This document shows positions 18-64,000 of a stretch of 64,000 nt of DNA, piece by piece; positions within the stretch are counted from its first letter, which is position 1; the number at the start of each line of letters is the position of its first letter. This DNA comes from a bacterium. Its GTDB lineage: Bacteria; UBP4; UBA4092; JAOAEQ01. Made by a program: the position numbers and the translations under genes. Where the stretch lies: positions 1-64,000 of the forward strand of contig JAOAEQ010000001.1 in NCBI GenBank assembly GCA_026416715.1, in the 5' to 3' direction. The notes beneath the pieces are model-generated. The model saw only the letters and a program-made list of their open reading frames with translations, was not told where the DNA came from and ran no database searches.

Positions 18-662
18 CTAATTATTGATAATTTCGTTTGCGATTCCGTTCGGATAATCGAGTTTGCCTGGTCCGCCGAATCGAATAATATCTCCATTAC
101 TAATGGTTCCATTCGTCGGGTCATAATAGTTTGGCCAACCTGTTACCCCTGAAGACCATGGTTTCCAAGTTCCATAAGGTGAATCCCATGATTTTGCATA
201 GTCTTGCTTTAAATCTGGACCCGCACTCGACATTCGCCACGCTCGACCCCAAGTATGCCCACCCCATGATTGTCGTGGATTTGACGAAACATCAATAAAA
301 TACTGTTCATCAAAATAATCATAGGTATCGTAGATAAACGGGTCTCGTGCTGGGTCTGGGAACGGATCTTTTGGTACGCGAGTAATATATGCTACTGGTG
401 TAGTAATCGCCCAGAACCGCCAGCTACACGGTCTACCTTGAGGGGTAGAAGGAGTCCAACGATAACTAGGATAACAGTTATAATCGGTATAATAAGCTTC
501 GCAACCAGTAGCAAGCGTCTTCATTTCACCTTTGGCACGGGATACTTTCGACCGAGTCTGTGCAGCGAGAAAGTTCGGAATCGCAATTGCCGCTAAAATC
601 GCAATAATCGCTACGACAATTAACAACTCAATTAAGGTAAATCCATATTTTTGTTTATGCAT
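18..662 (-). CDS. Type IV prepilin / GspG-like pseudopilin
   Basis: Exported pilin-like subunit that would be cleaved and N-methylated by a prepilin peptidase and assembled into a type IV pilus or type II pseudopilus. Seen: a short basic leader ending in G, then the FTLIELLIVVAIIAILAAIA hydrophobic helix with Glu at mature position 5, followed by 'FLAAQTRSK' and an aromatic-rich globular C-terminal domain of about 170 residues containing many D/P/W/Y residues. The start chosen is the ATG at 662, seven bases downstream of AGGAGGTG. A GTG four codons further upstream overlaps that Shine-Dalgarno sequence and is unlikely. A sigma70-like promoter lies just upstream. A PilP/PilQ-like secretin operon is at the other end of the window, so this could be its substrate, but adjacency does not prove it. 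Product class is secure; pilus versus pseudopilus is not. Confidence 0.88.
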   Translation of the reverse strand: MHKQKYGFTLIELLIVVAIIAILAAIAIPNFLAAQTRSKVSRAKGEMKTLATGCEAYYTDYNCYPSYRWTPSTPQGRPCSWRFWAITTPVAYITRVPKDPFPDPARDPFIYDTYDYFDEQYFIDVSSNPRQSWGGHTWGRAWRMSSAGPDLKQDYAKSWDSPYGTWKPWSSGVTGWPNYYDPTNGTISNGDIIRFGGPGKLDYPNGIANEIINN

Positions 663-715
663 GTTTGATTTCACCTCCTTTTTGATATAAATTCTGTTTC
701 GGATTTCAATTTATA

Positions 716-744
716 ACTATAGCACTTTTAATTAAATTAGTCAA
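716..744 (-). promoter_or_regulatory. Sigma70-type promoter of the prepilin gene
   Basis: On the minus strand, TTGACT (739-744) and TATAGT (716-721) are separated by exactly 17 bases, and the -10 box is preceded by TGC, so it is also an extended -10. Transcription would start near 709 and give a leader of about 45 bases carrying the AGGAGGTG of the pilin. This is the best consensus promoter in the window. Confidence 0.7.
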
Positions 745-834
745 GTAGGAAAAGATATTTTAGGGGGTAATCTGATAAATTCGGATTATTCCAATATTGC
801 AGAGATAAAAGAATAATCAATCGAGGAGGAAGAT

Positions 835-1131
835 TTACTCCGATTTCTTTTGAGAGGTTTCTTTCTGAACTGAAGAAGTATCAGCGGATTTACTTGATGA
901 AGAAGCATCGGTTTTTTCTGCGGAAGCTTTCTTTTTATAATCTTCGCTACGATAATCGGTAATATAGAAACCGCTACCTTTAAAAATAAATCCTGCTCCC
1001 GGACTAATCAACCGTTGAACTTTTCCGTTCCGTTTACATTTCGGACAAGTTCGAATCGGTGGTTCCGTTATTTTTTGAAATTCTTCAAACTTATATCCGC
1101 AATGTTCACAGAGATATTCGTAGGTTGGCAT
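835..1131 (-). CDS. FmdB-family putative regulatory zinc-ribbon protein
   Basis: Small zinc-ribbon protein. The family is named after FmdB of methylotrophs but has no firmly established function. Seen: it begins MPTYEYLCEHCG, the family hallmark, with CxxC (EHCG) and CPKC pairs about 20 residues apart forming one zinc site, followed by the typical RLISPGAGFIFKGSGFY segment. The C-terminal 30 residues are low-complexity Ser/Lys/Thr. I start at 1131 because the family always begins at MPTYEY; 14 further codons upstream are open but run into the intergenic hairpin. It lies downstream of groES-groEL on the same strand, and its Shine-Dalgarno AGGA sits inside the 3' arm of a stable hairpin (1142-1197). 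Confidence 0.85.
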   Translation of the reverse strand: MPTYEYLCEHCGYKFEEFQKITEPPIRTCPKCKRNGKVQRLISPGAGFIFKGSGFYITDYRSEDYKKKASAEKTDASSSSKSADTSSVQKETSQKKSE

Positions 1132-1141
1132 ATGAAAAACA

Positions 1142-1197
1142 GTCCTAAGTTCTAAGGCATTCGTCTCAACCACAGACGATACCCTAGAACTTAGGAC
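1142..1197 (-). promoter_or_regulatory. Hairpin between groEL and fmdB that covers the fmdB ribosome-binding site
   Basis: A 13-base perfect inverted repeat (1142-1154 with 1185-1197), extended by two more G-C pairs after one mismatch, encloses a second 6-bp stem (1161-1166 with 1174-1179). In the transcript the 3' arm ends TTAGGAC, followed by TGTTTTT and the fmdB ATG. The structure could act as a leaky terminator after groEL, as an RBS-occluding element, or both. Confidence 0.5.
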
Positions 1198-1248
1198 GAA
1201 CTTATCTACTTACGAATTTTGATGCGACTTTTGCCGCCTTTTAACCTT

Positions 1249-2904
<1,656 letters not shown>

Positions 2905-2912
2905 TTAAACCT

Positions 2913-2998
2913 CCAAATCCAAAATTTACACTCCAAAGTCCAAATAAATCATTTTAATCCTTGATTGATTAAGTGATTTATTTGACATTTGGATTTGG
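2913..2998. repeat. Long imperfect palindrome in the groES-groEL spacer
   Basis: Outer arms CCAAATCCAAA (2913-2923) and TTTGGATTTGG (2988-2998) are perfect complements, as are the inner arms 2941-2951 and 2974-2984 (CAAATAAATCA / TGATTTATTTG). It lies inside an expected bicistronic mRNA, without a T-run, so it looks like a processing or stability element, or a REP-like insertion, rather than a terminator. Confidence 0.6.
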
Positions 2999-3008
2999 GA
3001 TTTTCCAT

Positions 3009-3302
3009 TTATTCTATGATTCCTAAAACATCTTCTTCCCGCATGATGAGATATTCTTCATCACCGAGTTTAACTTCATTACCTGAATATTTCCCGAATA
3101 GGATTTTATCACCTTTTTTAAGTTCCATCGGGATTTTCTTGCCGGAATCATCAACTCGACCCGGACCAACCGCAATCACTTCACCCTGTTGCGGTTTTTC
3201 TTTTGCGGTATCCGGAATAATGATTCCGCCTTTTTTAACTTCTTCTTCTTCAATTCGTTTGACCAGAATACGGTCACCTAATGGTTTTATCTTAATTGCC
3301 AT
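3009..3302 (-). CDS. groES: Co-chaperonin GroES (Hsp10)
   Basis: Heptameric lid of the GroEL chamber. The 97 residues match the family length. It starts [16 protein letters not shown], contains the mobile-loop region ([31 protein letters not shown]) and the [23 protein letters not shown] roof and core strands. The Shine-Dalgarno GAAAGGAG is 10 bases upstream of ATG. It is the first gene of the groES-groEL pair; fmdB may be co-transcribed behind them. A second strong Shine-Dalgarno-like AAGGAGGTG occurs about 80 bases upstream but is not followed by a usable start codon. Confidence 0.97.
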
Positions 3303-3933
3303 AATGTTCTTCGACTCCTTTCCTCAAAAATTTTTTAGCGTAACTAGGTTTGGTTAGTTCAAGGTTGGGTAATAATGAATTCACCTCCTTTTCAACACAT
3401 AATTTATCGTTGTAAATAATAACTATTATGGTATTGATTTATCTAGGGTTATGTTTTATAGATATTATTGAGACTGGCTATATAATAAGAAATGGCGTAC
3501 CATTGAAAAGCAACTTCTATGCCGATAAAAAATAATTTATTATTTGCCTAGGGTAATCTTGTTCATGCATTTAATAAACGATTGAATTTATTGAGTATTA
3601 TAGTTGACCAAGTTATTGTCAAATTTTTATAACTTTTTTTCATGGTCGAAAGATACTGTTGCGACTACGCCATTTTGGCACGAACGCCCAGACAAGTGCA
3701 TCCTATTCTCTGTCATATTGGCTATTGTATCTGATTTATACTGGAGAGGAAACGGAATTGAACTGATCAATTCCGTTCCAAAGCCGTTTGATGTAAACAA
3801 TGCTTAATAAAATGATATTGATTTTTTTCCATAGAGACGCCAATCTTACTTATGATGAGAAATAAGTCACATACTTTATTGGTTTTTTGAAAAGAAAATT
3901 ATAGAATATAATAATTCTGATAATTAAATATTG
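3303..3933. other. Long intergenic region without a convincing gene
   Basis: About 650 bases between the divergent groES and DUF1460 genes. The only open frame (3604-3807, TTG start) has no Shine-Dalgarno sequence and protein-unlike composition. What stands out is a strong hairpin at 3748-3779 (14-base and 13-base arms with one bulge, loop ACTGA). The groES promoter must lie here, but no good -35/-10 pair and no CIRCE was seen. Confidence 0.5.
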
Positions 3934-3942
3934 TGCTACAAT
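3934..3942 (+). promoter_or_regulatory. Extended -10 promoter of the DUF1460 gene
   Basis: TGC-TACAAT lies about 34 bases before the ATG, leaving room for a short leader that carries GAAAGGAAA. No recognisable -35 box, as is usual for extended -10 promoters. Confidence 0.4.
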
Positions 3943-3975
3943 ATTACCCAAAACTGTTAAGAAAGGAAACTGTTT

Positions 3976-5076
3976 ATGTTTCGGAATTACCCAATGTATC
4001 TATCAGTATTTACGTTCTATTTCATTTTTCTTGGTTTGAGCTATAGTATCGCAAAAACGAAAATAACTCTTACTGAACAGGATAAACTCATTGCGCTTGA
4101 ACTGAACATCAAACCGGATAAACTCGCTGAATTAAAAGCAAAACCGATGTATAAATTTTCAGAGAAAGATTTAGATATTTATCTCGGGTATATCCAAAAA
4201 GCGGAACCGAACCTACGTAATCGCGTTGTCCATCTTGGCCGGAAAAATATCGGACAACCATATAAAATATATCTACTCGGTGAGTTCCCGTTCGAACTCT
4301 ATGATGCTGACCCGATGTATTGCTTGAAACAGAGCGATTGTGTCGTTTTCTCTGAGCATACGTATGCGATGGCGTTAGCGAAAAACTGGCGTGAATTTTT
4401 CGTTCTCTTGCAACGGATACGATACAAAAATGGCGAAATCGGTATGCTTACTCGTAACCATTACACGGAAGCAGATTGGGATATTAACAACTCTTGGTTG
4501 GTAGAAGATATCACGGAAGAATTGGTCGGGAACCGAGCGGCAACGTTCTCTGCGGATATCAACCGGGCAGCATTTTTCGAAAAATATCATATCGGACAAG
4601 ATATTCCGATTCAGAAATTTTCAACGAAATATATCCCCTGCGAACTTATTCCGGAAGTTCTTGATAAATTGCAAAACGGCGATTTCGTTAATGTGGTTCG
4701 TGGTTACGATGCCCCGAGTTGGGTCGGCCATACCGGATTGATCGCTATCGCTCCAGATGGCACAGTCGATTTCCTGCATTCAACTCCACCGAAAGTAACT
4801 GAACAACCGCTATTAGAATATATGAATAAAGCGGTTAGCCGCTGGGCTGAAATTGATAAACATAACGCGTATGTTGATGAAATGAAGAAAAAAGGGATAA
4901 CCTATGAACGGAAAGGGTTTTTCCGTAAAAAAGTAGCATTAAAAAAACAAGCGAAATTATACGGATTCAAATTTTTACGGCTGCGCGATAATCCGCTTGA
5001 TGAACTTCGTAAACTCGATGGAGCTGATACTCCTCGAGTGACTGCACCATTAGGATTATTGAAAAACCATGAATAA
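3976..5076 (+). CDS. DUF1460 family, N-acetylmuramoyl-L-alanine amidase-like exported protein
   Basis: Predicted periplasmic NlpC/P60-superfamily cysteine hydrolase, probably acting on peptidoglycan stem peptides (family inference). Seen: a signal peptide or anchor helix (residues about 8-26), the catalytic-Cys motif SDCVVFSEHTYAMAL with Cys122, and a conserved GHTGLIAIAPDG segment around residue 252 that would supply the catalytic His. The 366-residue length fits the family. The GAAAGGAAA ribosome-binding site precedes ATG. The C-terminal 80 residues are rich in Lys/Arg and have no recognised motif. It is followed by an intergenic palindrome and then, on the same strand, an MBL exonuclease-like gene; co-transcription is uncertain. 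Confidence 0.8.
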   Translation: MFRNYPMYLSVFTFYFIFLGLSYSIAKTKITLTEQDKLIALELNIKPDKLAELKAKPMYKFSEKDLDIYLGYIQKAEPNLRNRVVHLGRKNIGQPYKIYLLGEFPFELYDADPMYCLKQSDCVVFSEHTYAMALAKNWREFFVLLQRIRYKNGEIGMLTRNHYTEADWDINNSWLVEDITEELVGNRAATFSADINRAAFFEKYHIGQDIPIQKFSTKYIPCELIPEVLDKLQNGDFVNVVRGYDAPSWVGHTGLIAIAPDGTVDFLHSTPPKVTEQPLLEYMNKAVSRWAEIDKHNAYVDEMKKKGITYERKGFFRKKVALKKQAKLYGFKFLRLRDNPLDELRKLDGADTPRVTAPLGLLKNHE

Positions 5077-5105
5077 TGCTAAGCGTTTTTTACAGACGAA
5101 TTTTT

Positions 5106-5179
5106 TTGCGCGCTTTGCGATTTGCTTTCTTATATAATTTAACCGCAAAGAACGCAAAGTATATGCGCAAAGTTCGCAA
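5106..5179. repeat. Intergenic palindrome, 'ACCGCAAAGAACGCAAAG' family
   Basis: Arms 5106-5119 (TTGCGCGCTTTGCG) and 5166-5179 (CGCAAAGTTCGCAA) are complementary at 12 of 14 positions. The right half contains the word AACCGCAAAGAACGCAAAG, which recurs in variant form at several other gene junctions in the window. Confidence 0.65.
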
Positions 5180-5193
5180 CGTAAATCTTATCA

Positions 5194-6189
5194 ATGAAAT
5201 TAAGTCATCGGATTGAGTGGGATAACGGGGTTCATATTAATGGATTAAATTTAGTGCTGGATGCAACGAAATCGGTTCCGTGTGCATTCGTTTCCCATGC
5301 GCATACTGACCATTTCGCTAACCATGGATCGATTCTCGCTTCTGCACCAACCGCGAAACTTTGCGCCGCCCGACTGAAGTCGAAATCACGCCTACCGAAA
5401 TTTAAGGAAATGAGATATAACCATCCTATCTTGTTTCATGATACCCACGTAGAACTACTTCCTGCAGGACATATTCTCGGTTCATCGCAGATTCGAATTA
5501 CTTCAGGAAATCAAACGCTACTCTACACTGGCGATTTCAGATTATATCCGAGTTTAACCGCTGAACCGATTATCATCAAATCGGCGGATATTCTGGTTAT
5601 GGATGCAACCTATGGTGACCCGATGTACATTTTCCCTCCCCGAGAAAGAGAATTGATCCGATTAACGAATTACCTTGATACCTGCTTATCGCATCACGTT
5701 ACCCCGGTTCTATTAGCGTATACGCTCGGGAAAGCGCAGGAGATACTTAAATACCTTGGCGATATCGGCTATCATTTAACTGTCCACCCTAAAATTGCAG
5801 AGTTAGCTGATGTATATACCCAATTCGGAATCACGTTTGCACCCTATAAGAAATTGAATGAAAAAACAGTCGCTCTACCCAACCGAGTTCTACTTGTTCC
5901 ACCGAATGGGCAGAAGAATGAACTCGTTGGTTCTATTCGGAAGAAAAGTGTTGCAATTCTTACCGGCTGGGCAGTAGATGATTCTGCAAAATATCGCTAT
6001 CACGCCGATGAACAATTCATTATTAGTGACCATGCAGATTTTCAAGAACTGATTGATTTCGTTCAGTTGGTTAATCCGCGATTGGTTTATATCTGTAATG
6101 GAGAAAAGAATTTCGTTAAATATCTCAGAAAATTAGGATTCAATGCTCAACTGCTGGAACGAACTAGACAACTGAATCTATTTGAATAA
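5194..6189 (+). CDS. MBL-fold beta-CASP-like exonuclease / mRNA 3'-processing-factor family protein
   Basis: Cytosolic metallo-beta-lactamase-fold nuclease related to the YSH1/CPSF and DNA-ligase-associated exonuclease families; the substrate here is unknown. Seen: the di-zinc motif HAHTDH at residues 35-40, AGHILGS near 100, a TGDFR metal-binding segment near 118, and the late SDHADF motif near 280 typical of beta-CASP-type enzymes. The 331 residues match the short members. There is no signal peptide. No DNA ligase gene lies beside it, so the ligase-linked role cannot be assigned. It ends just before another palindrome. Confidence 0.8.
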   Translation: MKLSHRIEWDNGVHINGLNLVLDATKSVPCAFVSHAHTDHFANHGSILASAPTAKLCAARLKSKSRLPKFKEMRYNHPILFHDTHVELLPAGHILGSSQIRITSGNQTLLYTGDFRLYPSLTAEPIIIKSADILVMDATYGDPMYIFPPRERELIRLTNYLDTCLSHHVTPVLLAYTLGKAQEILKYLGDIGYHLTVHPKIAELADVYTQFGITFAPYKKLNEKTVALPNRVLLVPPNGQKNELVGSIRKKSVAILTGWAVDDSAKYRYHADEQFIISDHADFQELIDFVQLVNPRLVYICNGEKNFVKYLRKLGFNAQLLERTRQLNLFE

Positions 6190-6197
6190 CTTAATAG

Positions 6198-6271
6198 CGA
6201 ATATCTCGAATGATAACTAATAACGCGAACAATTACTCATTCAATAGAATCGTTATCGTTCGAGTTATTCG
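6198..6271. repeat. Imperfect palindrome between the MBL and nitroreductase genes
   Basis: Twenty-base arms 6198-6217 and 6252-6271 are complementary at 18 of 20 positions (CGAATATCTCGAATGATAAC against GTTATCGTTCGAGTTATTCG), with a 34-base loop. No T-run follows. Confidence 0.65.
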
Positions 6272-6288
6272 TTCATGGGAGGTTACCA

Positions 6289-6864
6289 ATGAATGTTTAC
6301 GAAGCTATAATCAATCGCCGGTCTATCCGCCGGTATCAGCAGAAACCGATTGATGAAACGATTCTCGAAAAACTGGTTAACGCTGCGCGATTAGCGCCCT
6401 CCGCAGCGAATTTGCAACCCTGCGAATATATTATTGTTCATGATAAAGCTATTGTTGACCAAATTTTCCCTTGTTTAAAATGGGCGGGATATATTGCGCC
6501 GGCTGGCAATCCGCCGGAAGGAGAACGACCAGTAGCATACATCGTGGTTCTCTTAAATCGGAACTGGCGAAAAGAAGGCGGTGAAGTTGATGCAGCCGCT
6601 GCAATCGAGAATATCCTGTTAACTGCGCTTGAAGAAGGCATTGCTTCCTGCTGGATTGTTTCCGTTGATAAACCGAAAGTCCGGCAAATTCTCAATGTTC
6701 CTGATTACTGCGATATAGATTCAGTTATTGCGCTCGGCTATCCGAATGAGAAATCGGTTGTTGAAGAAATGACTGATTCGGTTAAATATTGGAAAGATGA
6801 TTCTGGGATATTCCACGTCCCCAAGCGGAACCTGAACACTATCCTGCACAAGAACAAATATTGA
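6289..6864 (+). CDS. Nitroreductase family protein (FMN-dependent)
   Basis: Flavin oxidoreductase of the NAD(P)H nitroreductase superfamily; the physiological substrate is not predictable. Seen: the N-terminal RRSIRRYQQKPI motif that contacts FMN phosphate, APSAANLQP near residue 45, a dimer-interface helix (AAAIENILLTALEEGIASCW) and the C-terminal VIALGYPNE. It has 191 residues, at the short end of the family, with no ferredoxin domain. GGGAGGTTACCA gives a clear ribosome-binding site. The C-terminal part after YWKD is short and tail-like. Confidence 0.9.
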   Translation: MNVYEAIINRRSIRRYQQKPIDETILEKLVNAARLAPSAANLQPCEYIIVHDKAIVDQIFPCLKWAGYIAPAGNPPEGERPVAYIVVLLNRNWRKEGGEVDAAAAIENILLTALEEGIASCWIVSVDKPKVRQILNVPDYCDIDSVIALGYPNEKSVVEEMTDSVKYWKDDSGIFHVPKRNLNTILHKNKY

Positions 6865-7016
6865 GTAGAAGCCAGGAATCCAGGCAAGTAACCATACAAA
6901 AGGTTCCATTAGCAATGCTCAATTAAAAAAATGAACCTGGAGAATTGAATATTTACGGCGCATATCGTCGAGGATTCCCGGATTCACCCTATATTAAGGT
7001 TAGTTTTATGTTTTTC

Positions 7017-10000
7017 TTATGCCATGCTTTCGTGGTCAGCAACAGGTTTTCTGCGGAAGTGCTGGAGGAATCTTCCGAACTTCTTACTAAATGATTCCAT
7101 ATAGATATAAAACACTGGGGTGATATAGAGGGTAACGAACTGCGAGAAGATTAATCCACCAACGACCGCGAGCCCGAGCGGCTGTCGGGTCTGACCACCG
7201 GCACCAACCCCAAGCGCTATGGGCAGCGTGCCCATTAACGCACACATCGTGGTCATCATAATCGGTCGGAACCGAATCAAACAACCCTGATATATCGCTT
7301 CCGCTGGGGTTTTCCCCTGAGTTCGTTGCGCTTCTAATGCAAAATCAATCATCATAATCGCATTCTTTTTCACCAAGCCAACCAACATTATCACACCGAC
7401 AAACGAATAGATGTTCAGTTCAACTCCGAATAGTAATAGAGTCAATAACGCACCGATTCCAGCAGATGGTAACCCTGATAAAATCGTTATCGGATGTGCA
7501 TAACTTTCATACAGTATTCCCAAAACGAGATAAATCACTAGAATTGCCATAACCAACAATATCCCTAACCCCTTCATCGACGACTGGAACGCTTGTGCGC
7601 TGCCAGCGAAATTGGTGCTGATTGAATCAGGTAAAACTTGTCGCGCCGCCGCTTGCACCTTATCCACCGCTTCACCTAAACTCACGCCCGGTTTTAGATT
7701 GAATGAGAGTGTTACGGAAGGTAGCTGCCCAGCATGATTGATTGATTGTGGACCTAACCCTTGAGATACATTCGCTACCGCATCTAACGGAACCAGATTT
7801 CCATTACTCGACCGAATATAAAGCATCGATAACGATGAGGGGTCGGCTTGATATTGGTCTTCGATTTCCATAATCACTGGATAATCGTTATTCGGTGCGT
7901 AAATGGTTGAAATCTGCCGAGAGCCATATGCGGTATAGAGCGTCTGCTCAAGCTGGTGCGGAGTTATTCCAAGCGCCATCGCTTTGTCCCGATTAATCTG
8001 AATATTCAGTTGTGGATTTCTTAACTGCAAATCACTGGCTACATCTTCTAATTCTGGCATCATTTTCAGCCGCTGCTCGAATAAACTTGCATAATAATAG
8101 AGTTCTCTGGTATCCGGACTCTGGAGCGTAAATTGATAGAGACTCCGCGAAGAAATACCACCGATTCGAATCGGAGGCGGATTGGTAAGATAAACTTTAA
8201 TCCCGGGAATTTTCGCTAGTTTCGGCCGGAGTTCTTGAATAATCTGGTCAGGGGTAAGTTTCCGTTCTTCTCTGGGTTTCAGTCGCATCGAAATCCCGCC
8301 GGAATTACCGCTTACCCGTGACATAAATCTATCGATATTCGGATTGTTGCGAATAATATCGACTACTGCTTGTTGATGTCGTACCATTTCAGGATATGGT
8401 ATTCCTTGCATCGCTTCAATAGATGCGGTTATCATACCGACATCTCCACTCGGAAGAAATCCTTTTGGGATAATGATAAAGAGGTACACGGTAACTATCA
8501 GCATCAATAGAGCCGAGATTATAGTTGCCCGTCGATATTTCAGCACAAGTTTCAAACTCCAATCATACGCATTCAACATCGCTTTAAATGCTTTTTCAGA
8601 TGCAATAAATAGCCGGCTATGTTTCATCTCTCCCGGTGGACGGAGAAATCGACCGCTTAGCATCGGGGTTAACGTTAACGAAACAACCCCGGAAACGAGA
8701 ATCGCTGAAGTGATAGTCACGGCAAACTCGTGAAATAATCGCCCGATAATCCCACCCATGAAAAGGATGGGGATAAATACCGCAGCGAGCGATAGGGTCA
8801 TCGAGAGAATCGTAAACCCGATTTCTTTCGACCCTTTAAACGCTGCTTCTAACGGTTTCTCTCCTTGTTCCATATGCCGCACAATGTTTTCTAGCATAAC
8901 AATTGCATCATCCACCACGAATCCGACTGATAGCGTTAATGCCATGAGCGACAAATTATCTAAGCTATATCCGAATAGATACATCACCGCAAACGTTCCG
9001 ACAATTGATATTGGTAGTGCTAGACTCGGAATAATTGTTGCGGATACATTCCGTAAAAAGAGAAAGATTACCAGGATAACTAGGAAAACAGTCAGGGTTA
9101 GTGTAAATTTAACATCATTAACCGATTCTTTGATTGACTCCGAGCGGTCATAGAGAATTTCCATATTGACTGAAGCTGGGATATACTGGCGTAATGTTGG
9201 CAGCAATTCTCGAATTGCATTTGCTACTTCAACCGTATTCGTTCCCGGTTGACGTTGAATTGCGAGAACGATTGCGCGTTTATCGATATACCAAGCAGCG
9301 GACCGTTTATTCTCTACACTATCAACGACCTTCGCAATCGCTTCTAAACGGACAGGACTTCCATTCTTATACGTTACAATAACCGGACGATACGCTTCCG
9401 CTTCTGTAATCTGCCCATCCGCTTCAATAGTCAGTGTCTGCTGGGCGCCATAAAGGGTTCCGGTAGGCATATTTACGTTTGCTTTCTGTACTGCGGAGAC
9501 AACTTCATCAATCGCAATACCTTTTGCCGCCAGCAATTGCGGAGCAAGTTGAATCCTGACCGCATATTTCTGTCCACCGTATACCATAACTTGGGCAACG
9601 CCATTCACCATTGAAAGACGTTGCGCTAAAATGGTTTCTGCATATTCATTGAGCATATACAGCGGGAGTGTGGACGAATATAATGCAATCATAACAATCG
9701 GCGCATCCGCTGGATTAACTTTTTGGAACGATGGCGGGGTCGGCATTTCGGACGGAAGCGACCGAAGTGCACGAGATATCGCCGCTTGTACATCTTGTGC
9801 CGCAGCGTCAATATCTCGACTTAAATTGAACTGGATGGTTATTTGAGTATTCCCCTGCGAACTAACGGAGTTCATTGAATCTATTCCTGCGATAGTCGAA
9901 AACCGTTTCTCTAATGGGGTAGCAACAGACGCCGCCATCGTTTCCGGACTGGCACCGGGGAGACTTGCAGAAACCTGTATTGTCGGGAAATCTACGTTCG

Positions 10001-28558: not shown

Positions 28559-29512
28559 TTATTCTAAAATTGCCTCAAAATCAATCAGTTCAATTGGGAT
28601 AACATTTAATAATTCAGCCATAGGTATTCCGGTCGCTTGAGTTGGAGTGAACTCTAAAATCCAACCTATCGTTGGGCAGATATCGATTTGCGATCGGATT
28701 TTATTACTAACATAATTCTTTTTGAAATCCGGACCTACTGCTAAAAACATTAGATGCCGGCATCCATCGCAGTCATCTCCGTGGTGAGCGAATCCACCGT
28801 GGGTATCGCCATGCCGACCGTGGTCATTTGTTATGATTAAATCAGTATTATCCCGATAGTAAGTATCGGAAGTGATTTTACTCCAGAGATTATAAACGAG
28901 ACGGTCTGCATTGAAAATCGCACTAGTATAACTACTCCAATTACCGGAGTGACCGGCAACATCTACATCACCAAGATTAACCAAAACCAGTTTTGGATGA
29001 TAAAGGTTCATAATCGTAGTGAGTCTATCGAAAATTTCATTATCGGTACCATTTGCGGCAACCATCGCGCCATATGGAGCGCCATCGTATCCTGAGGTTG
29101 TTGTGCTATAGGAGAGGATATTCAATTTCCCTTTTCCCACCACCACCCAGGTTAAAGTAGAGTCAATTCCCTGTTGCTCGCGGTAATATTCAAAAAATGT
29201 CCGATGATATGGCCGTTGGGTTCCGTCATTAGCTATATCCTGCCACGTACCAGATTCGATACTAGCATGCCCGGAATTGGTTACCGTTATCCCGAGATTA
29301 TAGAAGCTGGTATTAATCGAACCGAGTGGTCGGAGGTCGTTCCAGATATGCGGGATAAGACAATGGTCAACATTCGATGAATTATCCCCAAACGTTTCAG
29401 TATACCGGGCACCATCTATAACAACGACAAATACATTCTGGGTTTGATATGCTCCGACTCCCGATGCGTATAAACCAATAAAACCAACTACCACAAAATA
29501 GGTTAACCGCAT
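28559..29512 (-). CDS. Secreted alkaline-phosphatase-superfamily protein with C-terminal PIELIDFEA tail
   Basis: Exported metal-dependent hydrolase of the sulfatase/phosphodiesterase/phosphatase fold. Seen: signal peptide (residues 1-21), metal and nucleophile region VVVIDGARYTETFGDNSSN with TVTNSGHASIESG near 75, LVNLGDVDVAGHSGNW near 180 and ITNDHGRHGDTHGGFAHHGDD near 230, giving the DxH/DHG metal ligands. A CDGC pair follows (HGDDCDGCRHLMF). Length 317 is short for sulfatases. The last 15 residues, VIPIELIDFEAILE, recur at the C-terminus of two NAGPA-SH3 proteins at 55.6-59.1 kb. It lies upstream of an amidohydrolase only by position, since that gene precedes it on the minus strand with a 65-base gap. 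Confidence 0.82.
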   Translation of the reverse strand: MRLTYFVVVGFIGLYASGVGAYQTQNVFVVVIDGARYTETFGDNSSNVDHCLIPHIWNDLRPLGSINTSFYNLGITVTNSGHASIESGTWQDIANDGTQRPYHRTFFEYYREQQGIDSTLTWVVVGKGKLNILSYSTTTSGYDGAPYGAMVAANGTDNEIFDRLTTIMNLYHPKLVLVNLGDVDVAGHSGNWSSYTSAIFNADRLVYNLWSKITSDTYYRDNTDLIITNDHGRHGDTHGGFAHHGDDCDGCRHLMFLAVGPDFKKNYVSNKIRSQIDICPTIGWILEFTPTQATGIPMAELLNVIPIELIDFEAILE

Positions 29513-55651: not shown

Positions 55652-57247
55652 CTATTCTAACATCGGCATCGGATATATCTGTTTATGTTCACCTTCTGAC
55701 CCGAAACCATGTATCCCAGCTGAAACTTCAGGATAAGCCTCGAAATCAATGAGTTGGATAGGAACGAGAGCAAACGCTCCTTCCGCAACCCAACCTACGC
55801 AACTATCGAAATCTACTCTCCACCAATATTGTCCTTTCGCATAGATACCGTTCAGGGAATGGTTGGTTACAACCCCGAGTTTATTCCCAGCAAGCGTAGT
55901 GATAACATCGTAATTCGTTCCCGGACCAAGCCGAACTTGGGTACTAGTTACGGTCGTTACAGTCGCATAAGAATAGAACAAGCTCGATTTATTCATGGGA
56001 ATAACATTAATCATCATTAACCCATTCGCATTTGCGCGTTCTGTCCCGCCGGAAGGATAGTTTTTCACCTGTCCGTTTACCCAGAGCGTTGACGACCCGC
56101 CGCCATCAAGATTAACCGCAAACTCTGCCCCGAGCGTATCCCGACAGAAATATCCAAGTTCAGGTAGCGACATCCCGATACTATTTGTAGTCCGGCCATC
56201 AGCAACAATAAAATAAATATACGTTGAATTATATGCGACACAAGTTCGTGGATGCCGCGTGGTTACAAACGAATTGGTCATAGACCAATCCGCAACCGGT
56301 ACCTGACTACTGATAACGGTATAATATTGACCGCCAACAAACGCAAATGCGCGAGTCCAATCTTGTGCAGGAATTTTGCCGGTATATGCATTCACTTTAA
56401 GATGAATCTGAATTTTAACTTGTTGGCCGGGATTGCATTGGTTCAAGAACGTGGTTTTAGTTCCACTAGCGGATAAAACTACTGCATCAAATGGTATGAA
56501 TGTTGACCCTTGATTTTTCCGTACCTGAAGGATAGTGCCGATTGAATAATAGACGTTCGTTGTTGGATAAATGAATGTCGGTTCAGTCATCTGGACTAAC
56601 ACTTCGGTTCCGGAATCATCCGTATAAGTTTTCTCCGCATATTGCGGGGTATAAAGGATAAGTTCATTTGTTCCGCGAGGACGGTTAACATGCGAAATCG
56701 TCGCTGAACCAACCGAAGTGATGATAACCAGATTCGTCGTATCTTCACCGGCAACATATCCTGCTAGTGCACAGGTTCGGTCGGATTTCCAAACGAACCC
56801 GTTCCCTTGCGGATATGTCTGACCGGAAAAAGATTTACAGAACCAGCCGGAATGAATCACGCCGTTGATAGCATCCCCCGTACTATTTATATCAAAAAAA
56901 TCACCGTTGATAACCGCAATAACCTGCGCGCGATTGCCCCAGTATTTATTATCTGACGTAGTACTTCCCCAATAGCTTAATGAATCGTTATATCGGTTTG
57001 CCATTCCACTAACCGTTTCCCGGTTATTGAAACTCCGGAGTTTCCCTTGACCGAGACAGGTATCTATATAAAGATTGGTTGATGAACGAGACATCCGCGT
57101 AACGAAAATACGCACCGGTCCAGCAATAGTATAGGAAGAATAATCTATGCCTGGTCCAACATTCTGCCAAGCAGTAAATCCAGCAGAGGTTAAAAACCAA
57201 CTTGAGATAAGTACCGCAACAGATAATACATCACCGCTTATTTTCAT
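55652..57247 (-). CDS. NAGPA-type phosphodiester glycosidase with SH3 domain and PIQLIDFEA tail (paralog C)
   Basis: Secreted protein of the PF09992 family, named for the human enzyme that uncovers mannose-6-phosphate. Bacterial members are thought to cleave exopolysaccharide or teichoic-type phosphodiesters. Seen: signal peptide region, AQVIAVINGDFFD near 100, RHPRTCVAYNSTYIYFIVADGR near 340, the catalytic-core LDGGGSST near 395, one bacterial SH3 repeat (VRLGPGTNYDVITTLAG...WWRVDFDSCVGWV) near 440-500, and then PIQLIDFEA followed by 27 residues. Shares the tail with paralog B and the 28.5-kb phosphatase-fold protein. Third of three tandem copies. Confidence 0.88.
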   Translation of the reverse strand: MKISGDVLSVAVLISSWFLTSAGFTAWQNVGPGIDYSSYTIAGPVRIFVTRMSRSSTNLYIDTCLGQGKLRSFNNRETVSGMANRYNDSLSYWGSTTSDNKYWGNRAQVIAVINGDFFDINSTGDAINGVIHSGWFCKSFSGQTYPQGNGFVWKSDRTCALAGYVAGEDTTNLVIITSVGSATISHVNRPRGTNELILYTPQYAEKTYTDDSGTEVLVQMTEPTFIYPTTNVYYSIGTILQVRKNQGSTFIPFDAVVLSASGTKTTFLNQCNPGQQVKIQIHLKVNAYTGKIPAQDWTRAFAFVGGQYYTVISSQVPVADWSMTNSFVTTRHPRTCVAYNSTYIYFIVADGRTTNSIGMSLPELGYFCRDTLGAEFAVNLDGGGSSTLWVNGQVKNYPSGGTERANANGLMMINVIPMNKSSLFYSYATVTTVTSTQVRLGPGTNYDVITTLAGNKLGVVTNHSLNGIYAKGQYWWRVDFDSCVGWVAEGAFALVPIQLIDFEAYPEVSAGIHGFGSEGEHKQIYPMPMLE

Positions 57248-57342: not shown

Positions 57343-59121
57343 TTATTGCCAATTTTGTTTATTATCGGGTTCAATGACAGCTTCAAAGTCAACCAATTTA
57401 ATAGGGATAGATAGTTCATTAACCCAACCTTGGACTCCACCAAAATCTACCTGCCACCAAGGTTCTCCATTCATATATATTCCATTAAGAATATGCGGAA
57501 TTATTGTTCCAACCTGCAGCGCCGGAATAGTTGTTGCTATACCAAAACCTATTCCCGGACCCAACCGAACCGGCGTAGCCATAAGTGTAGTTATCGTATC
57601 ATAAGAAGCAAATCTATTCGAATTATTCGACGGAATAAACGCAAGTTGATTTTCTGACACCCACCCTTCCGTGGAACCGAATAAACATTTCCACCAATTC
57701 TGTCCTTTTGCAAAGACGCCGTTAAGTGAATGCGAAACGACGGTGCCAACTTGCACACCCGGATATGAGCTTACAATTCCGTAATTAGTTCCCGGACCTA
57801 AATGTGCAGCAGTCGAAGCAATCGTCATAACCGTTGCGCTTGAATAAAATGTACTAGTTTTACTCATCGGTAATACATTCACCATAACCAATCCATTAGC
57901 TACATATCGTTCCGAACTATCTGACGGATAATTTACTACCCCTAATCCTTTAACCCAAAGGGTTGAAGAACCGCCTCCGTCTTGATTAACCGCAAACTGT
58001 GCTCCGAGCGAATCTCGACAGAAATAACCGAGTTGATCATAGGTCATCCCAACACTATTACTCGTTCTACCATCAACGACAACAAAATAAATATATGTTG
58101 AATTAAACGCAACTGCAGTTCTCGGATGGACATCAATGTTACCAGCCCAATCCGCTGACGGAACCTGACTGCTTACCACACAATATACGCCTCCACCAAT
58201 ACCTGCATAAGCTTTCCCCCAATCTTGATCAGCAGGTAATGGATATTGTCTAGTAGTCGGAGTTCCATAATCTTTAACATGCATATAGACCCGCACTTCC
58301 TGACCAACCGTACATTGGCTTAGCAGCGTGGTTTTATTTCCATGTCCGGAAAAAACTACACTATCAAACGGTATCGGAGTGGAACCCAGGAATTTCCGAA
58401 CTTGCACAACATTACCTCTGGCATACGATGTTCCTTGCGGAAACGGTAAATTCGGTCGATCCATTTTAACCACTACCTCAACACCACTATTATCAGTATA
58501 CGTATGCGGTCCATAGAGCGGTGTATAGAGAACCAAATCGTTTGTACCTCGAGTCCAGTTCAACCGAGTTATGGTCGCAGTACTCTGAGCAAACGCAACT
58601 AATTGCGGGAAAACATTTGGTACATCACCGTTTCGAACATCACCACCCAGAAAACAAGTTCGATTCAATTTCCACACGAACCCGCTGCCACCGTATTCGA
58701 TATACCGTTTTGCAAACCAGCCACCTTCGATTGTCCCACCGAATGCAGTGCCTGCACTATAATTATAAAAATCACCATTAATCGCCGCAACCACTTGTGA
58801 CCGATTCCCCCAATAATTTACAGTTCCTTCACCCCAATAATTAATCGTGTCATCGTAGCGGTTTGCCATTAAGCTTACACTTTCACGACCGTTATATGGT
58901 AATCCGGTTTTGTTCAACCGGCCGCACGCAGTTACACTATCAATGATACAATTCGTTGAAGCGCGACTCAACCGGGTAATAAAAATCCGATTTGGTCCTG
59001 CAATGGTTAATGATGAATACTCTATTCCTGGAGCTATCGGAATCCAATTTGCAAATACCATACTGCTTAATATCGAAAATAGCCCAAGTATAGTTCCTAA
59101 AATAATAAAGTTTTTTCTCAT
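57343..59121 (-). CDS. NAGPA-type phosphodiester glycosidase with two SH3 domains and PIKLVDFEA tail (paralog B)
   Basis: Longest of the three paralogs (592 residues). Seen: signal peptide (IILGTILGLFSILSSMVFA), SQVVAAINGDFYN, HPRTAVAFNSTYIYFVVVDGR, NQDGGGSST (DGGGS conserved, preceding residue Gln instead of Leu), then two SH3 repeats, the first (HLGPGTNYGIVSS...WWKCLFGSTEGWV) and second (VRLGPGIGFGIATT...WWQVDFGGVQGWV), and the terminal PIKLVDFEAVIEPDNKQNWQ. The duplicated SH3 may give extra glycan binding. AGAAGGAGTAATTGCT precedes the ATG. Middle gene of the trio. Confidence 0.88.
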   Translation of the reverse strand: MRKNFIILGTILGLFSILSSMVFANWIPIAPGIEYSSLTIAGPNRIFITRLSRASTNCIIDSVTACGRLNKTGLPYNGRESVSLMANRYDDTINYWGEGTVNYWGNRSQVVAAINGDFYNYSAGTAFGGTIEGGWFAKRYIEYGGSGFVWKLNRTCFLGGDVRNGDVPNVFPQLVAFAQSTATITRLNWTRGTNDLVLYTPLYGPHTYTDNSGVEVVVKMDRPNLPFPQGTSYARGNVVQVRKFLGSTPIPFDSVVFSGHGNKTTLLSQCTVGQEVRVYMHVKDYGTPTTRQYPLPADQDWGKAYAGIGGGVYCVVSSQVPSADWAGNIDVHPRTAVAFNSTYIYFVVVDGRTSNSVGMTYDQLGYFCRDSLGAQFAVNQDGGGSSTLWVKGLGVVNYPSDSSERYVANGLVMVNVLPMSKTSTFYSSATVMTIASTAAHLGPGTNYGIVSSYPGVQVGTVVSHSLNGVFAKGQNWWKCLFGSTEGWVSENQLAFIPSNNSNRFASYDTITTLMATPVRLGPGIGFGIATTIPALQVGTIIPHILNGIYMNGEPWWQVDFGGVQGWVNELSIPIKLVDFEAVIEPDNKQNWQ

Positions 59122-59291: not shown

Positions 59292-60845
59292 TTAATATTT
59301 CTTCCAATCGTTTATTTTCCCCGCAGGAACATATTCCAGATTCTCTTCTGCCGTCCATCCCTCAGTATCCGCAAATTTCCATTTCCACCAGTTTTTCCCG
59401 GTTGCATAGATGCCGTTAATCGAATGCGAAACGATTCTGCCGGTTATTCCACTCGGTGCAGTTGCAATAACGGCATAATTCGTTCCAGGACCAAGGCGAA
59501 CTTCAGCATTCGTTTTCGCCATAACCTTGTCACCGGTTGAGTAAGTAGAAGTTTTACTCATTGGGAGGATGATTGCCATAACATACCCATTAGCTACTGC
59601 TCGTTCAGTTCCATCAGACGGATTATTTTTAACCTGCCCGTTTACCCAGAGCTCGGATGACCCGCCGCCATCTTGCGCAATTGCAAATTCCGCTTGTAGC
59701 GTATCAACACAGAACTTCGCTAATTCGGTAAACAACATCCCTTCATTCGTTCCCGGTCTATCACCGTCAACAACAACAAAATAAAGATAACTACTATTGA
59801 ATGCAACCGCGGTTCGTGGTCGGCGAATCGTGTACTGAGTTTCACTCCAATTATCAAACCATGGTTTACTGCTCACCACGATATAAACCGCTCCGCCAAT
59901 ACTTGCATATACTTTACCCCAATCTTGGTCGTATGGTAACGGAGCTGGGATGTTCCATTTTTCTGACGTTGAAATCCCCCAATCTTTTATATGCATATAG
60001 ACTCGCACTTCCTGACCGACCGTACACTGACTATTGAGATAACTTGCTGCGGTTCCGTGACCGGAAAAAACTACACTATCGAACGGAATCGGCGTTGACC
60101 CTGCATTTGGTCGAATCTGGCTGACCGTTCCCAGCGCAAACCACGTCCGTTGCGGAAACGATAAATTTGGTTGAACCATCTGGACTAAAACTTCTGTTCC
60201 ATTGTTATCGGTATAAGTATAAGGACCGTATTGTGGCGTATATAAAACCAAATCGTTCGTGCTTCGGGTCGTATTCAGTTTTGTTATTGTTGCTGAGTTC
60301 CCGCCAAATGAAACTAATTGTTCAAACACGCTTGGCGCATCGCCATTGCGAACATTTCCGCCTAGATAACAGGTTCGGTTTAATTTCCAGAAGAATCCGC
60401 TATTTCCGCCATATTCCGGAAAACGTTTCGCAAACCATCCGCCGATAATCTGACCGCCGGAAGGAACCCCAGTCGTCGGATTGAAATAATCACCGTTAAT
60501 TGCTGCAACAATTTGCGTGCGTGGTCCCCAATATTGCACATACGAAGTTGTACTACCCCAATAGTTGATTGTATCCTGATATCGGTTAACCATACTACTT
60601 AGCACTTCGCGACCGGAAGCTAATCCGGTTTTATTTAATCTCCCTTGGGCAAGTATAGTATCAATCACGCAGTTGGTTGAATCGCGATGCATCCGAGTTA
60701 CATAGACATTAGTCGGTCCGGGCGGCACATACGTTAGAAACTGCTGATAATCTATTCCTGGAGCAACTGAAGTCCAATCAGCGAAAACCAAATTGAATTG
60801 CGTTAATAGGAGACATACCATGATATAAGTTAACCGTCTTTTCAT
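59292..60845 (-). CDS. NAGPA-type phosphodiester glycosidase with SH3 domain, no tail (paralog A)
   Basis: First transcribed of the three. Seen: signal peptide (MVCLLLTQFNLVFA), TQIVAAINGDYFNP, RRPRTAVAFNSSYLYFVVVDG, AQDGGGSSELW, and one SH3 repeat (VRLGPGTNYAVIAT...WWKWKFADTEGWTAEE). It ends YVPAGKINDWKKY, lacking the PIxLxDFEA tail found in B and C. A probable extended -10 promoter lies 34-42 bases upstream, and a secretin operon with its terminator is just before it, so the NAGPA set is likely a separate transcription unit. Confidence 0.88.
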   Translation of the reverse strand: MKRRLTYIMVCLLLTQFNLVFADWTSVAPGIDYQQFLTYVPPGPTNVYVTRMHRDSTNCVIDTILAQGRLNKTGLASGREVLSSMVNRYQDTINYWGSTTSYVQYWGPRTQIVAAINGDYFNPTTGVPSGGQIIGGWFAKRFPEYGGNSGFFWKLNRTCYLGGNVRNGDAPSVFEQLVSFGGNSATITKLNTTRSTNDLVLYTPQYGPYTYTDNNGTEVLVQMVQPNLSFPQRTWFALGTVSQIRPNAGSTPIPFDSVVFSGHGTAASYLNSQCTVGQEVRVYMHIKDWGISTSEKWNIPAPLPYDQDWGKVYASIGGAVYIVVSSKPWFDNWSETQYTIRRPRTAVAFNSSYLYFVVVDGDRPGTNEGMLFTELAKFCVDTLQAEFAIAQDGGGSSELWVNGQVKNNPSDGTERAVANGYVMAIILPMSKTSTYSTGDKVMAKTNAEVRLGPGTNYAVIATAPSGITGRIVSHSINGIYATGKNWWKWKFADTEGWTAEENLEYVPAGKINDWKKY

Positions 60846-61005: not shown

Positions 61006-63279
61006 TTACTTAATGTTTTTCATCTTTTCTGAATTCAGTTTCGAAATATCCTTCGCTGATAGAGAATTCAGTTCATCGGCGGTGCGAACCACATGCGGGG
61101 TTAGAAACACCAAGAGTTCAGTTTTCTCTTTTATGTTATTAGTGCTTTTAAATAAATGACCGAGTATCGGCAAGCTGCCTAGAATTGGTATCTTATGCAC
61201 GGTTTCAGTCCAATCATCTTTCATTAACCCGCCGATGATTACCGTTTCACCGGTTTTCACCATAACTTCAGTACTCGCTTCGCGATTTGCAATCACAGGC
61301 GCATCGAAATAAGTGGTTTCTTCAATTTTGGATATAATCGGATGGATGGTCATGGTAACAAATCCATCTGGATTAATATGCGGAGTAACGGTCAGCGTTA
61401 TCCCGACATCACGGTATTGATAGCTATAATAGATTGAGCCGGTATCGGTTACCTGTCGGCTGGTTAAAAACGGTACTTGTTCCCCGACTTTTATTGTTGC
61501 CGCAGCATTATCACTGGTTAAAATTCGTGGTGTAGATAAAATATTCAATTTACTATCTTTTTTCAACGCTTTAATAATCCCTTGAATATTTTTATTTGTT
61601 ATGGAATAGGTTAATCCTTGGGTAATTGAACCAAGGTTGAACGACGTTGATGCCACGCTACTCACCCACTCACCAAGTATTTCGCCGGATGGAAATATCG
61701 TCCATTCAGCACCAAGTTGCGTCTGGTCATTCAGTGTTTTTTCAGCTATCAATACTTCAATCAAAACTTGCGGTCGAGCAAAATCGAGTGAAGAAACTAA
61801 TTCGCGCAATCGAGCAAAATTTCGTGGAGAAGTAATAAAAATCAACGAATTAGTATCTTTATCCGCAGCAATTCGCACCTGACCGAGCAATGTATCTCCT
61901 TTAGCCACCGCTGCGGTTTGTGTAACGCGAGTAGTTGTTATATTTCTCAAATTGGTACCACCAGTCCCGGATGTTTGCGCCTGGGTTCCACTCGCTTGTA
62001 ACAAATTAGTTAACATTGTAGCTAACGTTGCGGCATCACCATGTTGCAAGTGGATGACAAGCGTTCCTTCCGGTTCAGTTTCGTCTTGGTCGAGCTTAGC
62101 AATCAAACCTTCAATTACCGCCATATCCGCTGCAGGCGCTGAAACTACTAAAGAATTCGTCCGGGTATCAACCGCTATTTTTACGGTTACCCGCGCTCGC
62201 GCCATTGCCGCTTCTGCTGCGGTTGGTTGGCTGGCTCCAGCTGTTCCTGTTTGCCCAGCAGACGTTCCCGGTGCGCCCGGTGGTCCGCCCATAAACTGTC
62301 GGAAAAATTGACCGGGACCACCACCTAGTGCGCCAGTACCGGTTGTTGTCGTAAGTGTATCCGATTTAAACAAATCATTGAGTATGGTAGCGAGTGCCTG
62401 CGCATCCGCATTAACCAATGGGAAAACCCGAATCTGGGTTACACTCGTTTGGGGAGCATCAAGTTGTTTGATAATTTCGGCAAATCGCCGAACATTCGAA
62501 GCGATGTCGGTGACAATTAACGTATTGCTACGTGCATTTGCTGATAAATCGCCTCGTTTCGGCATCAGATTTGCTAAATCGCGTTTTAATTCTGCGGCAT
62601 CAGCATAGGATAACGGGATAACCTGAGTGATAAACTCATCACTCGGTTCGATAGTATTTGGGTCTGAGCCAACTCGAACTTTTACTTCCGCTTGTTTCGC
62701 GGCATCGATAGGAACAATTTTTAAAACGTTATTTACCCGAATCGAAGTGTATCCTTTTACTGCCAGTGCTGAATTTAATGCAGATAATGCATCTTCAACC
62801 GAAATATCCTTTTCGCTTAAAATTGTTATATCGCCGGAAACTTCGGCATCTTTAACCACAGTGCATCCGGTAATATTACTGATATAGCGCAAAACCTGTT
62901 CCAGACTTGCGCGTGTAAACCGAAACGAAACCTTTTTCACCATTTCAGATTCTCGGTCTGGAACTCCGCTCATTTTATTACTGGTCGAAGTGTCAAGGTT
63001 CGAAGACTCAAGTTTAGGCGACTCTGCTTCTGAAGAAAATTGGCTATACGTTGATTCTAGCGCCAGGGTGTTTTCGGATGTCGGGTTCATTTTAGATTCA
63101 ACGACTACTGGCGGTGCAGATTGAGTATTCACCTCAGGCTCTGCCGCGAATATACCGGCTGCACATAAAGTTAATAATGAAATGCAGATACAATTTTTTA
63201 CCCCACGACGAAAGGCAACGCGTAGGTTAAAATTCAATGTCCGCGCGCAGGGATTCGTTTTGTGTAATATTCGTTTCAT
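61006..63279 (-). CDS. Secretin, PilQ/GspD type
   Basis: Outer-membrane multimeric channel of a type IV pilus or type II secretion system. Seen: signal peptide near residue 30-45, N0-type SRFT/STN-like segment (VSFRFTRASLEQVLRYIS), N1/N3-type repeats (VIPLSYADAAELKRDL; VFPLVNADAQALATIL; VIHLQHGDAATLATML), each followed by a TNSL-type ARSNTLIV segment. A Gly/Thr/Pro-rich insertion lies at about 310-350. The secretin domain carries VGEQVPFLTS, YRDVGITLTVTPHI, ETVIIGGLMKDD and PILGSLPILGHLFKS. It overlaps the preceding PilP-like gene by 4 bases (ATGA), so they are translationally coupled. Without assembly ATPases in view, T4P and T2SS cannot be told apart; the PilP-like partner favours T4P. Confidence 0.93.
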   Translation of the reverse strand: MKRILHKTNPCARTLNFNLRVAFRRGVKNCICISLLTLCAAGIFAAEPEVNTQSAPPVVVESKMNPTSENTLALESTYSQFSSEAESPKLESSNLDTSTSNKMSGVPDRESEMVKKVSFRFTRASLEQVLRYISNITGCTVVKDAEVSGDITILSEKDISVEDALSALNSALAVKGYTSIRVNNVLKIVPIDAAKQAEVKVRVGSDPNTIEPSDEFITQVIPLSYADAAELKRDLANLMPKRGDLSANARSNTLIVTDIASNVRRFAEIIKQLDAPQTSVTQIRVFPLVNADAQALATILNDLFKSDTLTTTTGTGALGGGPGQFFRQFMGGPPGAPGTSAGQTGTAGASQPTAAEAAMARARVTVKIAVDTRTNSLVVSAPAADMAVIEGLIAKLDQDETEPEGTLVIHLQHGDAATLATMLTNLLQASGTQAQTSGTGGTNLRNITTTRVTQTAAVAKGDTLLGQVRIAADKDTNSLIFITSPRNFARLRELVSSLDFARPQVLIEVLIAEKTLNDQTQLGAEWTIFPSGEILGEWVSSVASTSFNLGSITQGLTYSITNKNIQGIIKALKKDSKLNILSTPRILTSDNAAATIKVGEQVPFLTSRQVTDTGSIYYSYQYRDVGITLTVTPHINPDGFVTMTIHPIISKIEETTYFDAPVIANREASTEVMVKTGETVIIGGLMKDDWTETVHKIPILGSLPILGHLFKSTNNIKEKTELLVFLTPHVVRTADELNSLSAKDISKLNSEKMKNIK

Positions 63280-63938
63280 TTTAATTCCTCCTCTTGTTGT
63301 AGCCGCCGTTTACGTAACCGTTCTTCTAGACTATCGCCTGGCGGTAAAGGCATAGTTACAGCACCGGAAGATACGGTTTCAGTAGTAGGTGTAATAGTTT
63401 GATTCTCTATATCTGATGTATCTCCTTTTTCTGGGACTTCAGTGCGTATAGTACCGGTTCCGGGAATAGGAATTTGGTCTCCGATATAATAAGTTTTAGT
63501 CTGATTTTTCTTTTCCAGAACCACTTTATCGAAATCAATCGTGGTAATTGAATAATCAAGGAGTTGGTCGTTTACTTTCAGATAATTGGCATCACCGGAG
63601 TTCAAATTTTCAACTAAAACTAGATATTGTGTTCCATCGTAAACGATACCGGTTATGGTTAATTTCTCCGGTTCGATAACCCGTTCGATAATTGGAATCG
63701 CCGGTTGGATACTTCTGCGCATATCTGGCGGTGTGAAAATATCGGATTCAATTATCTCGGCCATGAGGTCTGGTTCGGTTTTTACTTCTGCTGGAATCAC
63801 ACTCGTTCCACTTGGTGTCGAGCGAGACAAATGTTTGTTCGCATCCGATGCTGTTGCCGATGTCGACTTGTTTGCGCACCCGAAATAGAATAGTGTATAT
63901 CCTAACAGTATAATCAGAGAATATTTTTTATAATTCAT
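63276..63938 (-). CDS. PilP-like lipoprotein of the pilus alignment complex
   Basis: Periplasmic lipoprotein linking the inner-membrane PilN/PilO to the secretin. Seen: signal peptide with lipobox (LFYFGC), a flexible Ser/Thr/Pro linker, a PilP-like core (LTITGIVYDGTQYLVLVEN...YLKVNDQLLDYSITTIDFDKVVLEK), and a charged C-terminus (EERLRKRRLQQEEEL). I begin at the ATG at 63938; a GTG 16 codons upstream lacks a ribosome-binding site. It overlaps both the upstream gene end and the secretin start. Confidence 0.78.
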   Translation of the reverse strand: MNYKKYSLIILLGYTLFYFGCANKSTSATASDANKHLSRSTPSGTSVIPAEVKTEPDLMAEIIESDIFTPPDMRRSIQPAIPIIERVIEPEKLTITGIVYDGTQYLVLVENLNSGDANYLKVNDQLLDYSITTIDFDKVVLEKKNQTKTYYIGDQIPIPGTGTIRTEVPEKGDTSDIENQTITPTTETVSSGAVTMPLPPGDSLEERLRKRRLQQEEELK

Positions 63939-64000
63939 TATTACCACTCGTTGTCGTTGATTTTTGTTTCGGAGCTGATTCCGCACGACTTAATGTAGCT
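63928..64000 (-). CDS. C-terminal end of an upstream gene, probably PilO-like (partial)
   Basis: One minus-strand frame stays open from the window edge and ends with TAA at 63928, overlapping the PilP-like start by 11 bases. It reads ...LSRAESAPKQKSTTTSGNNEL. The composition (S/T/K-rich tail) and the coupled overlap fit the end of a PilO- or GspM-type gene, but too little is visible to name it. Confidence 0.4.
   Translation of the reverse strand, partial: ATLSRAESAPKQKSTTTSGNNEL

Follow-up and report, generated by a model that had tools for sequence, protein, structure and literature searches.

Three exported proteins encoded in a 64,000-nt stretch of bacterial DNA (the whole stretch analysed, hereafter the window) end in nearly the same peptide, PIxL[IV]DFEA, and the question raised by this locus is why enzymes of different folds should share such an ending. 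The original prediction was that the tail is a sorting, anchoring or protease-recognition signal, possibly one serving a secretin system at the right edge of the window. The relevant features are:

28571..28597, minus strand: C-terminal tag PIELIDFEA, followed by ILE and the stop, on a phosphatase-fold protein (sequence reading and genome-wide pattern search)
28559..29512, minus strand: exported phosphatase/phosphodiesterase-superfamily protein with the tag (Pfam Metalloenzyme PF01676, E=2e-8)
55736..55762, minus strand: C-terminal tag PIQLIDFEA, with 27 residues after it (sequence reading and pattern search)
55652..57247, minus strand: exported NAGPA plus SH3-like protein with the tag (Pfam NAGPA PF09992, E=2.7e-25)
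57379..57405, minus strand: C-terminal tag PIKLVDFEA, with 11 residues after it (sequence reading and pattern search)
57343..59121, minus strand: exported protein with NAGPA and two SH3-like repeats, with the tag (PF09992, E=3.6e-26)
59292..60845, minus strand: third NAGPA-SH3 paralogue, exported and without the tag, with the C-terminus EYVPAGKINDWKKY; an internal contrast to the other two

All three tails were found where they had been described. The catalytic folds differ as claimed, since the first protein matches Pfam Metalloenzyme and the other two match NAGPA, and the claim that all three are exported agrees with the signal peptide recognized by reading at the N-terminus of each. Genome-wide, P[IVM]xLxDFEA matches these three tails only. 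The motif as originally written was also compared with background among the 94 non-overlapping ORFs of a larger region (C1:1-124000), giving three matches within the last 45 residues and none elsewhere, while shuffling the tails of the same ORFs gave none (0/2000 shuffles); the motif thus lies far above background and at the extreme C-terminus. The EYVPAGKINDWKKY end of the untagged paralogue is possibly a decayed tag.

Judged from sequence, the window tails PIxL[IV]DFEA represent the local form of a more general tag with the consensus [VI]-P-V-E-L-S-x-F-x-[AST], often followed by E. Tagged proteins were enumerated by pattern and profile searches, followed by reading of the matched stretches, in a lineage sample consisting of the source genome (G000) and one other genome of the same class (G001). 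Relaxed patterns identified four further exported tagged proteins (BPL_N, LamG, GHL10-like and M1 peptidase), and a profile built from the resulting seven tails found the same ending in more proteins of G000 and in G001, with examples such as VPVELSRFEALIN, VPVELSDFLAE and VPVELSSFEAE; at the loci read, none lay more than 27 residues from the stop. PVELxxF matched 21 times in G000 and 32 times in G001, versus 5 and 3 times, respectively, for a reversed-pattern control. Internal matches in real ORFs were rare, and one other tail match was a response-regulator-like ORF. There are 20 full-length tagged ORFs (≥150 aa) in G000 and 25 in G001, besides two or three remnants; in the full-length ORFs the tag lies 1 to 28 residues before the stop, and exactly one residue, almost always E, follows it in 17/25 G001 proteins. 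The search patterns fix P, L and F, so that variants of the tag escape detection and the agreement at these positions is partly ascertainment, yet positions left free are also conserved, with V/I before P in 43/45 proteins, S at position 5 in 37/45 and the terminal E in G001. These counts firmly support the tag and place it at the C-terminus. It was also seen on short or broken ORFs of G000 (C9:27458, C5:1385 and the C44 edge, with VPVELSRFEALAK, PVELSRFERN and PVKLSRFEANILP, respectively), which are probably what is left of tagged genes, or else genes cut by a contig edge.

The tagged proteins form 24 sequence clusters between which no homology is detectable apart from the tag. The original prediction had itself named a shared C-terminal domain, alongside a background frequency of the motif, as a finding that would overturn it, and these 24 families have no domain in common. 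Carrier domains include phosphodiesterase-type, NAGPA, BPL_N, Laminin_G_3, GHL10, M1, M6, papain, Exo_endo_phos with CBM4_9, Endonuclease I, polysaccharide deacetylase, amidase, Golvesin_C, LTD, beta-helix, SBBP propeller and DUF4434. A signal-peptide-like start was recognized, by a crude hydrophobicity test and reading, in 44/44 tagged proteins with a readable N-terminus; by a similar crude measure such a start is present in 55/94 ORFs of the sampled region (C1:1-124000).

Among the genomes tested, the tag is restricted to this lineage. A strict form that includes the stop, PVEL[S/T/C/R]xFxx[E/D]-stop, gave 17 matches in G001 and none in 384 other genomes (∼260 families); none were obtained in G000 itself, where this form undercounts because the tags have different or extra terminal residues. 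A scan of GTDB (84,980 species) with P[IVM]EL[IVM][DN]FEA, which may leave out the source genome's own records, returned 40 loci. About 20 of these are Bacteroidota or Kapabacteria proteins with a complete FN3-like domain, and the others are apparently unrelated or chance matches. A match in a relative (L007) was discarded as a short frame beside groES that is no gene. Within the literature searched, no paper contained any of four PVEL-type tag sequences, and VPVEL was never found together with C-terminal location and secretion. The tag appears to be an address label, so far undescribed, for cell-surface or extracellular proteins.

As with sortase-type tags, many exported proteins that are otherwise unrelated carry a short signature close to their C-terminus. 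MYXO-CTERM and GlyGly-CTERM are C-terminal tags on type II secretion system (T2SS) cargo, and both are tripartite (signature, transmembrane helix and basic cluster) and cleaved (PMC11980579). The G000/G001 tag resembles the MYXO-CTERM/myxosortase and GlyGly-CTERM/rhombosortase systems in being short, C-terminal and present throughout a lineage on many Sec-exported proteins of unrelated sequence, and PEP-CTERM/exosortase and LPXTG/sortase in that exported proteins with nothing else in common share a homologous C-terminal region. It differs from the former pair in having neither helix nor basic cluster, and from the latter in lacking the tripartite architecture. No transmembrane helix follows the tag, only 1 to 28 mostly polar residues, and no consistent basic cluster ends the proteins, which terminate mostly in E in G001 and variably in G000, some with one or a few K/R. 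A tripartite sortase-type tag is ruled out by the missing helix and basic end, both of which known sortase-type enzymes require, and the same features make sortase-type cleavage improbable, so that the tag is probably left uncleaved by an enzyme of this type.

The tail had also been likened to the P-V-E-L-x-S-F-x-A strand of FCB-group secreted proteins, a likeness that was borne out: in Bacteroidota and Kapabacteria proteins this sequence forms strand A of an FN3-like domain. At these loci the motif starts the domain, approximately 150 to 185 residues before the stop, and the region downstream of the domain resembles a type IX secretion system (T9SS) C-terminal domain. An AlphaFold2 model of the FN3-like domain, built from 17 rows, has a pLDDT of 95.9 and the motif in strand A at residues 4-14; a profile search of the PDB with the domain gave marginal matches only, and Foldseek returned FN3 domains. 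Because the model puts the motif in strand A, the tag matches this strand, placed alone at the C-terminus. The two sets of proteins are alike in strand sequence, in its location in the C-terminal part of exported multi-domain proteins, and in similar upstream modules, which end F-S-x-W/F-T-L-G before the PVEL strand in both. They differ in that the full domain and a further region follow the strand in the FCB proteins, whereas the G000/G001 proteins end after it. The other FN3 strands (W-x-T-x-S-E ... Y-Y-R-L-K-Q) were not found in the tagged proteins.

The search for SprA, the T9SS translocon, gave no match in G000 and one weak sub-threshold match in G001; it was run without a clear positive-control genome. 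With that same qualification, the missing SprA argues against the tagged proteins being T9SS cargo, as do the at most 28 residues that follow the motif, compared with ∼70-100 residues for a T9SS type A C-terminal domain. The lack of SprA and the upstream modules common to both sets could instead point to a vestigial stub, in which an ancestral PVEL-FN3 plus T9SS C-terminal domain was trimmed after loss of the T9SS, leaving a non-functional first strand. We regard this as unlikely, since ∼45 proteins in 24 families would need cuts at nearly the same residue, and since positions free in the search are conserved (V/I 43/45, S 37/45, the final E in G001). No FN3-like remnants were detected after the stop codons of the 45 tagged loci, although flanks were shorter than 200 bases for 11/45, a result that also counts against recent truncation of the PVEL-FN3 domain. 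Distant orthologue pairs in which both members are tagged further oppose a non-functional stub, though both members were found via the tag.

The reading we favour, and consider reasonably probable, is that the tag serves as a signal for sorting or retention and is recognized as an exposed beta-strand. For the receptor, the exporter and the purpose of the tag we infer the following scheme. Tagged proteins would be exported via Sec and then fold, after which the exposed amphipathic tag strand would be bound, through beta-augmentation, by a putative envelope receptor. Binding would either recruit the cargo to an outer-membrane exporter, with the T2SS as the leading candidate, or retain the protein on the surface of the cell; in both cases the C-terminal end would stay uncleaved by a sortase-type enzyme. 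The untagged NAGPA paralogue (59292-60845) in the same cluster counts against the tag being a signal.

A different role, in stability or quality control and without any part in sorting, would have the strand cap the last domain, or shield or expose the C-terminus to periplasmic proteases. In several proteins, for example LamG and BPL_N, the tag does come directly after the last domain. Since the preceding folds are unrelated, however, one fixed capping strand would hardly fit all carriers, and the tag occurs only on exported proteins, most of them of extracellular type. This role is accordingly considered quite improbable.

The FCB domain profile gave one strong match each in G000 and G001, and both begin at profile position 13-14, without strand A:

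G000 C6:26406-26933 (L083:6407-6934): stand-alone FN3-like secreted protein/lipoprotein without the canonical first strand (profile search)
G001 C62, L104:1423-1983: stand-alone FN3-like secreted protein/lipoprotein without the canonical first strand (profile search)

The two share 45% identity and are flanked by a similar gene; a lipobox is present in the G001 copy. Neither has an NCBIfam match, and the G000 copy has no Pfam match above cut-off. That the single match per genome starts without strand A suggests strand donation, whereby the tag would complete this one protein by supplying its missing strand and so gather tagged proteins non-covalently at the surface; nearly all readable relatives of the domain in other genomes do possess a PVEL-like strand A. 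AlphaFold2, however, fills the strand A position with a Ser/Thr-rich linker of the protein itself, at low to moderate confidence (block pLDDT 58-80). Three genomes in which the strict tag gave no match (G013, G161 and G084) also have stand-alone strand-less relatives, and the domain family is common, being present in 70/239 other genomes. Docking of this kind is therefore judged very unlikely. As for a repeated DNA element at gene 3′ ends that merely happens to encode the peptide, for which the shared peptide and nothing beyond it would speak, the chance is negligible: codons differ in 73/128 same-residue comparisons among seven tags and the 3′ sequences after the stop codons are unrelated, indicating that selection acts on the peptide.

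The export route under the favoured sorting or retention reading brings in the right edge of the window, where two further genes were identified:

61006..63279, minus strand: GspD-like secretin, the last gene of a complete T2SS operon and immediately upstream of the three NAGPA genes; a candidate export route
63276..63986, minus strand: GspC/PilP-like partner gene of the T2SS operon (reading and position)

The operon order was read as gspE-F-G-H-I-J-K-L-C-D, with gspE-L lying to the right of the window (L076, C1:64001+, 506-8706). The three NAGPA genes, two of them tagged, follow gspD on the same strand. Although G001 encodes a GspD 56% identical to that of G000, no tagged neighbour is present at its orthologous gspD region; a conserved T2SS-tag neighbourhood, present in G000 and absent in G001, was consequently rejected, and this absence counts against the T2SS route. 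To our knowledge, no conserved linear C-terminal signal has been established for T2SS cargo in general. The tagged proteins resemble T2SS substrates in being enzymes of extracellular type with a Sec-type start, in genomes where a T2SS is present and, in G000, adjoins two tagged genes, and the T2SS is a plausible export route for them. The original interpretation is thus supported in part: the C-terminal tag stands, and its link to the secretin system, with a complete operon directly preceding the NAGPA genes in G000 but no tagged neighbour in G001, stays circumstantial.

Shared by at least 24 unrelated protein families of a single bacterial class, a strand-like tag of ∼10 residues would represent a C-terminal sorting signal of a new type, in contrast to the sortase-type tags compared here, which are tripartite and cleaved, and to the T9SS, which uses a whole domain. 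The ∼45 candidate cargo proteins now listed bear on how the T2SS recognizes extracellular cargo, or how the surface holds it, in lineages without a T9SS, and the correspondence with strand A suggests that pieces of older domains can become sorting tags. Two local arrangements were also observed. Three tandem paralogous exported proteins in G001 (C43; L145, 1798-6271) each end in PVELSRFY[YF]E[HP], and the gene for the tagged LamG protein of G000 has a type IV pilin-like gene immediately upstream (C16, L005:2372-2929, minus strand).
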